Source: Bacteroidota bacterium
GTDB lineage: Bacteria; Bacteroidota; Bacteroidia; NS11-12g; UBA955
Assembly: GCA_016787485.1 (NCBI GenBank)
Contig: JAEUUL010000021.1
Span: forward strand, 1 to 64,000
Length of the DNA: 64,000 bases
Reading direction: 5' to 3'
Position numbers and translations under genes: made by a program. Under the pieces are notes generated by a model, which worked only from the letters and a program-made list of their open reading frames with translations, had not been told where the DNA came from and searched no databases. This document shows positions 31,271 through 34,051 of the stretch, one piece after another. The first letter of the stretch is position 1. Each line of letters begins with the position of its first letter.

Positions 31271-32491
31271 GTGCCCTCAATCCATGTACATCCTTTCAGA
31301 GGGCTGAGACCCGCCAACAAATTTGCCAATCAGGTAATCACACTTACAGATATAGCAAAGTCAGAAGATCAGTTGCGGCAGGAACTGGAAAGCGAACCGC
31401 TGTCATTCCTGCATCTGATGAAGCCAAACCTGCATTTTGCAGAAGGCAAACCCCTTACAGAGCAACATTATGCGTTTTCCCGCAACTACCGCAGGCAACT
31501 GCAGGAACAACAGGTACTGGTGCTTGACGATATTCCATATGTGTACATCTACAAGCAGATACTGGCAGATGGAACTGTGTTTGAAGGTGTAATACTGGGG
31601 ATAGAGGCACGGGACTACGCTGAAGGCCGGATCCGCAAACATGAACATACCCTTACGGCCAAAGAAGACGGGCTGGTAGATTACATACAAAAACTACAGA
31701 TGGTGGGAGAGCCTGTTTTGTTGGCAAACCCGAATGAATGGTTTTTCAGTGAATGGATGCATAACTTCGATGAAAGGCCGCCAGCGCAGGAGTTTACAGA
31801 TATGCGGGGAACGCAGCACCAACTTTGGTTGGTTTCTGAGCCAAAGGGGATTGCCGACTTGCAGATGAGTTTCGCCAAAACGCAGAACCTGTATATCGCA
31901 GATGGTCATCATCGCATTGCGGCCGTAGCGCGGTATCAGCAGGAGCATGAGTCAAAGGCAGAAACGCAGCTCATTATGGCTTTTGTGCTGCCCGAGAGCA
32001 GTTTGCGCATTAAATCCTTTCACCGGTTGCTTCAGAATATGGATCCTGTTTTGTGCGCAGGACTGCCGGACAAAGCAGCGGCTGACTTTGAAGTTACCCG
32101 GATGACCGAAGGTGGCAGACCGTCCAGAAAAGGTGAAATTGTTTACCTTGGTCCGCAGGGCTGGTATAAGTTTACCCTGAAACCCGGGCATGCCCACCCG
32201 TCACCCTCTGAAAATCTGGATGTATACCAGCTGGAAGACCTCATTTTCAGAAAACATCTGGGTATCACCGACTCAAAAACAGACGAGCATCTGTTGTTTG
32301 TAAACGGGGATGAAAGCCTGCATTCCCTGGAATCACGCAAGGACAGGGGAGAGATTACAGCCGCCTTTGTCTTATTCCCAAACTCGATGAAAGAGATAAG
32401 GGAAGTGGCAGATGCTGACGAGACCATGCCGCCCAAAAGCACCTGGATAGAACCCAAGCTGCCTGCAGGTATGGTTATCCATACTTTCTGA
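31271..32491 (+). CDS. DUF1015 family protein linked to serine synthesis
   Basis: The 406-aa cytoplasmic protein has the DUF1015 hallmarks: N-terminal HPFRGLRPANKFA, IRKHEHT (121-127) and IADGHHRIAAVARY (DGHHR 211-215). It starts with GTG at 31271, 6 bp after serA. DUF1015 genes often accompany serA/serC, and the DGHHR motif resembles that of ParB-fold free-serine kinases (SerK/SbnI), so a role in serine phosphorylation is a reasonable inference but unproven. The last 18 codons plus stop, and 25 bp beyond, are duplicated at 33970-34051, marking an insertion right after this gene. Confidence 0.88.
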   Translation: MPSIHVHPFRGLRPANKFANQVITLTDIAKSEDQLRQELESEPLSFLHLMKPNLHFAEGKPLTEQHYAFSRNYRRQLQEQQVLVLDDIPYVYIYKQILADGTVFEGVILGIEARDYAEGRIRKHEHTLTAKEDGLVDYIQKLQMVGEPVLLANPNEWFFSEWMHNFDERPPAQEFTDMRGTQHQLWLVSEPKGIADLQMSFAKTQNLYIADGHHRIAAVARYQQEHESKAETQLIMAFVLPESSLRIKSFHRLLQNMDPVLCAGLPDKAAADFEVTRMTEGGRPSRKGEIVYLGPQGWYKFTLKPGHAHPSPSENLDVYQLEDLIFRKHLGITDSKTDEHLLFVNGDESLHSLESRKDRGEITAAFVLFPNSMKEIREVADADETMPPKSTWIEPKLPAGMVIHTF

Positions 32492-32516
32492 GAATTGAAT
32501 CTTTGCCATTGAAGCG
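32435..32516 (+). repeat. Left 82-bp direct repeat (3' end of the DUF1015 gene)
   Basis: This segment covers the last 57 coding bases and 25 bp downstream of the DUF1015 gene. It is identical at 80 of 82 positions to 33970-34051, in the same orientation. One of the two mismatches is synonymous in the gene (GCA/GCG Ala); the other is outside it. Confidence 0.95.
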
Positions 32517-32637
32517 AACGTTTTCAAATTTAAGTTGTAATATCAAATTGTACGGCAACAGAATAAGAAATGCACACATGGGGTGCATCAGTCAATGCGA
32601 TAAGGGAATAAAATTGAAAATTGGTCCCTAATACAAG

Positions 32638-33636
32638 CTAAGCTTCAGCAGCGCTTTGTTGTGCCAATTCCTGGGGTTCCTGCTCGTGTTCAAAGTTTTG
32701 TGACATTTTGCCCCAAGAAATGTTTCTGGGGTTCTCAAACAGTTTAACAAATGGTGTTAAAGAAAAGAACCCAGTGATAAGTAGGTGTGTTTCCCACAGC
32801 AATTTTGCAAATTCACCCTCAGCCACAAAAAGTGGCATTCCGAAATCCTTGAGTTTTGAGAAGGTGAGTGGACGAGTATGCATCAAATGTTCTTCGTAGT
32901 TAGACACGAAACGAACGATTTCGTCTACTTGTTTGTCTTTAGGATTGCCATGTTTAAACATGTACTTGGCTATCCAGTCAGCAACGAGAAGTTTGGATAA
33001 ATCTTCAGAGTCCTGACACAACTCCAATAGTTCAATTGAATATTTTTCAATAAGAGGAATGTAAGCTGGTAAAATAGAAGGACCCTTGTCTTGAATAATT
33101 TCAGTAATTTTCTGAAAACCCCGTTTTATAGACATAGCGGGTATGCCATTAATCTGCGGGTCAATCGGACCTAAAACTGCACTTGGGTGCAGGGTGATGG
33201 AATTGCCACTGAGGGCCAGCATAGTTGCAGCCGAATATGCAGAATGTGGCACTAAGAAGTGAACTTGCTCAAATCGGGTCCTCAGCAAATCAACAATTCT
33301 CTCAGTAGCGTCCGGTCTTCCACCAGGACTAAATAGCAATACGTCTATTTCTTTACATTTCGAATCTACGGCATTGATGAGGTCTGTAAAACCCTCAACA
33401 TCTGCTAAGTCAATAAAGTTGGACAGCTCTTCATTGGATTGTACGTCGTAGAATTTGGAAACGTAAACAATCAATGGCCTGCCTCTGTACTTCTCAATCT
33501 CAGAATACGCATGCATGCGCATCTTATTAACGAGACCTATCTTCTGTACAGCAGGAACAGCCGCTGCTTGTACAAGAAATTCATGCCAAGCTTGGGTGGA
33601 GTTAATACGTGGTAATTCCACCGGCTTTCTTGTCAT
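32638..33636 (-). CDS. SDH-family Clp-fold serine proteinase
   Basis: The 332-aa protein of the ClpP/crotonase fold resembles the serine dehydrogenase proteinase family (Pfam SDH_protease type). VLLFSPGGRPDATERIVDLL (about 99-118) gives the oxyanion-region GG, VPHSAYSAATMLALSGN gives the likely nucleophile S135 (family S-A-G-T-M, here S-A-A-T-M), and HPSAVLGPIDPQI follows the usual pattern. There is no signal peptide; hydrophobic LLITGFFSLTPFVKLF near residue 290 might contact the membrane. It overlaps the small upstream gene by 35 bp, so the two probably form one transcript. It lies inside the direct-repeat-flanked insert, suggesting an accessory, possibly defence-related role (inference). 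Confidence 0.8.
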   Translation of the reverse strand: MTRKPVELPRINSTQAWHEFLVQAAAVPAVQKIGLVNKMRMHAYSEIEKYRGRPLIVYVSKFYDVQSNEELSNFIDLADVEGFTDLINAVDSKCKEIDVLLFSPGGRPDATERIVDLLRTRFEQVHFLVPHSAYSAATMLALSGNSITLHPSAVLGPIDPQINGIPAMSIKRGFQKITEIIQDKGPSILPAYIPLIEKYSIELLELCQDSEDLSKLLVADWIAKYMFKHGNPKDKQVDEIVRFVSNYEEHLMHTRPLTFSKLKDFGMPLFVAEGEFAKLLWETHLLITGFFSLTPFVKLFENPRNISWGKMSQNFEHEQEPQELAQQSAAEA

Positions 33637-33835
33637 TTAAACATACTACCGCCGTTGTGCTCATGCTGAGGGAAACCGACTTGGTCTTTTGCCTATTCAT
33701 TGCACGGTAGGTTTTCTCAATTATAATGGAGACCTCCTTGTAGCTCTCTATTACATCCTTTACTTCTACAGATTTAATATCGGACTTAGTGACTACCATG
33801 CTCAATGTTTCTTTTTCAGGCGTTTTGGTATTCAT
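33602..33835 (-). CDS. Small protein co-encoded with the SDH-family proteinase
   Basis: The 77-aa product begins MNTKTPEKETLSMVVTKSDI, continues with VKDVIESYKEVSIII and ends with hydrophobic/Ser-rich SVSLSMSTTAVVCLNDKKAG. It has no recognised domain. The ATG at 33835 is preferred to the upstream ATG at 33865 because a TAATTTTG -7 box (33848 to 33841) ends 5 bp before it. The 35-bp out-of-frame overlap with the proteinase gene suggests coupled translation; it could be a partner, substrate or regulator of the proteinase. Confidence 0.6.
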   Translation of the reverse strand: MNTKTPEKETLSMVVTKSDIKSVEVKDVIESYKEVSIIIEKTYRAMNRQKTKSVSLSMSTTAVVCLNDKKAGGITTY

Positions 33836-33840
33836 AGGTG

Positions 33841-33848
33841 CAAAATTA
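33841..33848 (-). promoter_or_regulatory. -7 promoter element of the proteinase module
   Basis: TAATTTTG on the minus strand fits TAnnTTTG exactly; TTG lies about 17 bp upstream. The start codon is 5 bp downstream, implying a leaderless transcript. Confidence 0.5.
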
Positions 33849-33969
33849 TGTTTAAGCAGTCGCAATTATACGACTCTGTCGTTAAAAAGCAACAATGATA
33901 CTACAAGCAACCTTTTCTAATACTGCATTAAATCTTATTCTATTTCAAAACACATCAATAAAAAGAAGA

Positions 33970-34051
33970 AAAGCACCTGGATAGAACCCAAGCTGCCTGC
34001 GGGTATGGTTATCCATACTTTCTGAGAATTGAATCTTTGCGATTGAAGCGG
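33970..34051 (+). repeat. Right 82-bp direct repeat (orphan copy of the DUF1015 3' end)
   Basis: This is the second copy of 32435-32516 (80/82). It still encodes the last 18 codons and stop of the DUF1015 protein but is detached from the gene. Confidence 0.95.

Follow-up and report, generated by a model that had tools for sequence, protein, structure and literature searches.

A protease gene pair between duplicated ends of a DUF1015 gene, one of seven gene-end inserts in a Bacteroidota genome

The window, i.e., the whole 64,000-nucleotide stretch of contig JAEUUL010000021.1 that was analyzed, carries a conserved gene for a DUF1015 protein followed by a two-gene insert. Beyond the insert, a second copy of the DUF1015 gene end stands alone, detached from its gene. 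The features of the locus are as follows.

31271-32491, plus strand: host gene, encoding an intact DUF1015 protein (PF06245, E = 1.1e-59); the order serC-serA-DUF1015 is the same in relatives.
32435-32516, plus strand: repeat copy 1, the last 57 nt of the DUF1015 gene and 25 nt downstream; identical to copy 2 at 80 of 82 positions.
32517-33968, no strand: inserted segment of 1,452 bp, AT-rich (GC 0.400) and without a recombinase; missing at this locus in relatives.
32638-33636, minus strand: cargo gene for a 332-aa ClpP-like serine protease of the SDH type (PF01972, E = 7.5e-19), with GG105-106, Ser135 and GPID conserved.
33602-33835, minus strand: small cargo ORF of 77 aa that overlaps the protease start; an upstream small ORF likewise occurs in L033, L035 and L037.
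33969-34050, plus strand: repeat copy 2, the stranded DUF1015 gene end and probably the native one; its stop codon lies ~400 nt from xre.
34426-34770, plus strand: xre-type regulator (HTH_3, E = 1.7e-06), the native downstream neighbor, in the right flank outside the insert; it follows DUF1015 in G014 and G001.

The two repeat copies (32435-32516 and 33969-34050) were recovered both by direct comparison and in a self-comparison of the window (E = 1e-33), where the sole stronger pair was a tandem gene duplication at 40820/41512. A lipoprotein-like gene is duplicated in tandem in the window at 40783-42152 (83% identical over 648 bp). One of the two repeat mismatches is synonymous (GCA/GCG, Ala) and the other lies past the stop codon, which the 57-nt coding part of copy 1 includes. 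These results bear out a first-pass annotation of the locus, which had described 82-bp repeats of this composition and identity, an insertion that left the DUF1015 gene intact, and a detached gene end marking the far side. The segment was also said to be A/T-rich and devoid of integrase or transposase genes. Its GC content is indeed low (40.0% vs 47.1% for the sampled genome, equal to the 5th percentile), and no integrase or transposase was found among its genes; only the reported length of 1453 bp needed correction, to 1,452 bp.

The cargo protease scores 68.3 bits against PF01972 (cut-off, 31.3) and retains the active-site region, including the surroundings of Ser135, the glycine pair at 105-106 and the GPID motif (alignment A1); solved NfeD/1510-N and ClpP proteases are further matches of its profile. 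The small ORF, 77 aa from its ATG or 87 aa from a TTG at 33865, has no match to a Pfam family. Three related proteases (L033, L035 and L037) have a small ORF directly upstream, not obviously similar in sequence. PADLOC gave no match for the window protease or for the other small ORFs, and membership of the cargo in the candidate system PDC-M13 was rejected because only PDC-M13B matches the small ORF, and weakly (E = 0.013). A defense or toxin-like role for the protease pair would be plausible.

The protease gene is accessory, occurring in 3 of 70 genomes of the family (the window's own included), 5 of 108 of the order and 43 of 395 in a sample of the phylum; a first scan of the genome contigs retrieved no close relatives of the window protease. 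Relatives of the protease were also encountered in phages, plasmids and one tRNA-Arg island. That 11-kb island (L082:4066-15288, on G279:C7) holds an SDH-type protease gene, perfect 44-bp repeats and a tyrosine-integrase-like ORF; its DNA-methyltransferase-, phospholipase-D- and integrase-like ORFs were named by eye. In G014, a genome of another genus, a module of a protease (27% identical to the window protease) and a small ORF has 260-bp repeats (89%) on either side, and these take in the end of a ribonucleotide reductase gene. As G014 was examined because it bears a protease, it carries no information on how frequent the pattern is. A gene remnant with weak similarity to DUF4325 lies between the protease and the far repeat copy (L081, on G014:C184), so that cargo may have entered this site on more than one occasion.

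Comparison of the DUF1015 locus in related genomes, which the first-pass annotation had proposed, revealed an empty arrangement at the family level. In five genomes of a related genus (g8), arsR directly follows DUF1015; G014 and G001 have xre in between (DUF1015-xre-arsR), matching the window without its insert. The protease pair is therefore an insertion. In the window, ~400 nt separate the stop codon of the stranded copy from xre; the distance between DUF1015 and xre is 379 nt in G001 and 509 nt in G014. Because this spacing resembles that of relatives, the right-hand copy appears to retain the old junction. The closest relative at this locus reaches 42% identity at best.

A direct-repeat scan of 2.37 Mb of the 3.41-Mb genome (69%) ruled out a unique event at DUF1015. 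It retrieved seven inserts bordered by the duplicated 3' end of a conserved gene, the DUF1015 case and six more, listed here with host gene, repeat length and identity, and cargo.

Insert 1: DUF1015; 82 bp, 98%; protease pair.
Insert 2 (C12): pyridine nucleotide-disulphide oxidoreductase, probably ferredoxin-NADP reductase; 88 bp, 94%; 1.45 kb.
Insert 3 (C18): molybdopterin oxidoreductase/NADH-G-like gene; 100 bp, 92%; 3.6 kb with DUF4062 and Schlafen-AlbA/HATPase proteins.
Insert 4: enoyl-CoA hydratase (read by eye); 138 bp, 91%; 2.2 kb.
Insert 5 (C8): dUTPase; 96 bp, 100%; 9.9 kb with Cas10, Csm2, Csm3, Cas6, Cas1 and a reverse transcriptase.
Insert 6: cytidylate kinase (read by eye); 125 bp, 93%; 1.2 kb.
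Insert 7: small membrane-protein gene, duplicated whole; 185 bp, 89%; 0.55 kb.

Most of the inserts are AT-rich, and the cargo beyond DUF1015 includes a type III-A CRISPR-Cas system, a DUF4062/Schlafen-like pair, and secreted or lipoprotein-like genes. The CRISPR-Cas locus, with Cas1 and a reverse transcriptase, is flanked by perfect 96-bp copies of the dUTPase gene end (G000:C8:21596-31663, L136); an integrase was looked for in this insert and none was found. An apparent CRISPR array with ~36-nt repeats, called as spurious ORFs, was seen elsewhere in the genome (G000:C14, ~98200-100750; L149-L150). After the molybdopterin oxidoreductase gene, a segment of 29.8% GC encodes the DUF4062 protein and an 871-aa Schlafen-AlbA/HATPase protein (L103:7181-10960, on G000:C18), the latter also matching PADLOC pAgo-associated models. 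On C12, two related secreted-protein genes (47% identical) flank the stranded oxidoreductase gene end (L097:11526-13928, on G000:C12), and the ends of this pair are near-identical (92% and 95% DNA identity).

The six other inserts have unrelated host genes and cargo and share neither sequence nor a common site, and the tested cargo proteins of all seven gave no match to a recombinase or transposase family. The suggestion in the first-pass annotation of a third type of carrier, after integrons and islands, thus finds no support; unrelated hosts, cargo and sites without a recombinase are expected of a recombination outcome, not of one element. Integron attC cassettes were likewise rejected, as six repeat sequences showed no folding advantage over their shuffled versions (z, 0.19 to -0.94). 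No comparable 5'-end or mid-gene counterparts appeared in the scan, where the few long matches were duplicated genes, a repeat array or spurious ORFs, and no stranded 3' ends of 33-76 bp were found. Repeats in C17, at C26:91152 and near 113 kb in C34 were set aside as intergenic or palindromic. No comparable case turned up in a control scan covering 0.91 Mb from 80 other genomes, the matches in L280 being a tandem-repeat array; as the contrast with this genome falls short of significance (P = 0.07 to 0.32), lineage specificity of gene-end inserts is not supported.

How the in-place and stranded gene ends differ bears on their origin. Over six pairs, 39 coding differences are synonymous and 10 non-synonymous where ~29% synonymous is expected, giving a nominal p of ~3e-13 with loci pooled and changes assumed independent. 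The first four pairs give 22:2 (DUF1015, 1:0; oxidoreductase, 3:0; molybdopterin gene, 8:0; hydratase, 10:2), followed by the kinase (5:5) and the small gene (12:3); the dUTPase pair has no differences. Because the differences are mostly synonymous, the stranded copies are taken to be former working gene ends rather than decaying target duplications, both copies having once functioned as gene ends in different lineages. The DUF1015 locus has only two differences, one of them coding, too few to establish donor origin there, and the case for it is built on the other loci. In the molybdopterin case, the stranded end (...KYKEELV*) resembles that of a relative, G011 (...KYKEVVV*), and the in-place gene ends in ...KYKEEQK*, its stop overlapping the start codon of the cargo. 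In the hydratase case, a terminator-like hairpin (read by eye) follows the stranded copy, not the in-place gene. Our reading is that the in-place end probably arrived with the cargo and that the stranded end is native. Within the oxidoreductase insert lies a relative of the gene located past the stranded copy; a donor piece derived from this locus of a relative would be expected to produce such an arrangement.

In the best explanation, which we consider reasonably probable, one gene end that matches the host's anchors donor DNA from a relative, and the two recombine in a RecA-type reaction. Homologous recombination at a conserved gene end, which was among the options of the first-pass annotation, thus fits best. 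At DUF1015, the donor, presumably a congener as at the other loci, would have carried the two cargo genes beside its own version of the DUF1015 3' end. Through this one matching end, the donor piece would recombine with the host gene, either as a trimmed fragment joined to itself, through a RecA-type single crossover, or, alternatively, by homologous recombination at one end and an illegitimate join at the other. The host gene would remain complete with a tail wholly or partly that of the donor, and the displaced host tail and old downstream DNA would end up beyond the cargo. A bias toward 3' ends would follow, the host gene still being expressed and complete. All seven repeats are pieces of the target gene able to serve as a homology anchor, and the origin of one copy as a donor allele is supported by the 39:10 ratio and the comparison of molybdopterin gene ends. 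The crossover's need for some homology would explain the lack of stranded ends of 33-76 bp. ComEC and DprA are encoded in the genome; their presence is compatible with DNA uptake. Against this explanation, 80-100 bp of DNA at 90-95% identity should be a poor substrate for a single crossover, and synonymous and non-synonymous differences are equally numerous in the cytidylate kinase pair. By analogy with the proposal for displaced T6SS modules (PMC5361080), one-ended linear integration would be a close alternative. The geometry of the repeats, the empty arrangement of relatives, the six other cases, the synonymous excess and the lack of a recombinase are observations; the identity of the donor, the circular or linear intermediate, the transfer route and any function of the protease pair are inferences.

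Several other explanations were weighed. With long target duplication, a staggered cut and its repair would leave ~80-140 bp of the target on both sides of the insert, as has been put forward for restriction-modification genes in Helicobacter (PMC3874152, PMC3031569). The repeat size of ~100 bp and the cargo without a known element fit this published description (PMC3874152, PMC3031569). Direct target repeats (82 bp here, 88-185 bp at the other loci) and the identity of the dUTPase (100%) and DUF1015 (98%) pairs also speak for it, but a stranded copy that began identical should since have changed irrespective of codons, which would not yield a 39:10 synonymous excess, and every case lies at a gene 3' end with none at a 5' end, so that we hold this route improbable. 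Synonymous divergence also fits two co-assembled strains, and repeat lengths are on the order of k-mer or read lengths; in such a misassembly, one strain would have the gene with cargo and another the bare gene, and the cargo would have been joined to the tip of the second strain's gene end. Such an artifact should duplicate the right flank equally often, yet all seven repeats are 3' ends (0.5^7 = 0.008). N gaps are lacking, the sole N run being contig C10, which was masked whole, and the 260-bp case comes from a different assembly (G014). Misassembly is accordingly unlikely, if a shade less so than long target duplication.

Where an integrative element targets the 3' end of a gene, it supplies its own copy to restore that end, which would fit the synonymous differences, and this genome has an integrase-bearing island at a tRNA (C7:65211-78077). 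The inserts could then be elements moved in trans by an integrase, or decayed CIME-like elements flanked by att sites. Seven unrelated targets with no common site and cargo without a recombinase family would, however, demand many trans-acting enzymes, and we give this account little credence. The related genes on both sides of the stranded copy in C12 would suit a local tandem duplication of a gene and its neighbor, with later loss of most of the second gene copy, but nothing beyond the stranded DUF1015 copy repeats the cargo and the relatives compared lack cargo at DUF1015, making this very improbable. There is, finally, a slim chance of a dedicated, unrecognized process of the lineage that inserts or exchanges cargo, often defense genes, at conserved gene 3' ends; each module would carry a copy of its target's gene end, and whole systems such as the 9.9-kb CRISPR-Cas locus would travel as gene-end cassettes that themselves encode no recombinase.

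With recombination through one gene end as the favored explanation, the event at the DUF1015 locus is of a known kind and apparently frequent in this genome. A genome-wide habit of gene-end-anchored acquisition is a more interesting result than a third carrier. Many chromosomal defense genes sit without a visible mobile element, and a stranded end that differs mostly synonymously from the in-place end would be a readable scar of cargo arrival by ordinary recombination between relatives. Such scars can be searched for in any genome. Seven in one genome, one of them around a whole type III CRISPR-Cas system, suggest that this route may be underestimated.

Among the closest known systems, the insert most resembles the products described by Amarir-Bouhram et al. 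2011 (PMC3240628), in which direct repeats consisting of part of the 3' end of the target gene border an insert. Given a molecule with homology at one end, 56 of 60 selected Escherichia coli clones had a partial duplication of the lacZ end, measuring 109-950 bp in 14 sequenced clones; the product was explained by a RecA-dependent single crossover of a trimmed, recircularized molecule, and strict homology-facilitated illegitimate recombination accounted for 4 of the 60 (PMC3240628). That work, which demonstrated RecA dependence and found repeats of at least 109 bp, involved a laboratory plasmid, 1 kb of homology and selection, whereas here natural cargo lies between diverged copies of 82-185 bp at seven loci. 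Long target duplication (Nobusato et al. 2000), as represented in the papers that cite it (PMC3874152, PMC3031569, PMC1643837), shares an element-less gene unit and direct repeats of ~100 bp; in those accounts the repeat is made at insertion, whereas the synonymous differences here suggest two pre-existing alleles. The end displacement of T6SS effector and Rhs genes (PMC5361080) has in common a one-sided homology anchor and an old 3' module kept downstream as an orphan, but there a variable toxin/immunity module changes, whereas here unrelated cargo is added at the end of a conserved housekeeping gene. Homologous or illegitimate recombination has also been invoked for small variable segments bounded by repeats (PMC2884548), in which small cargo likewise has direct repeats at its base; 66-94% of those repeats are shorter than 30 bp, in contrast to the 82-185 bp seen here, all of them gene 3' ends.
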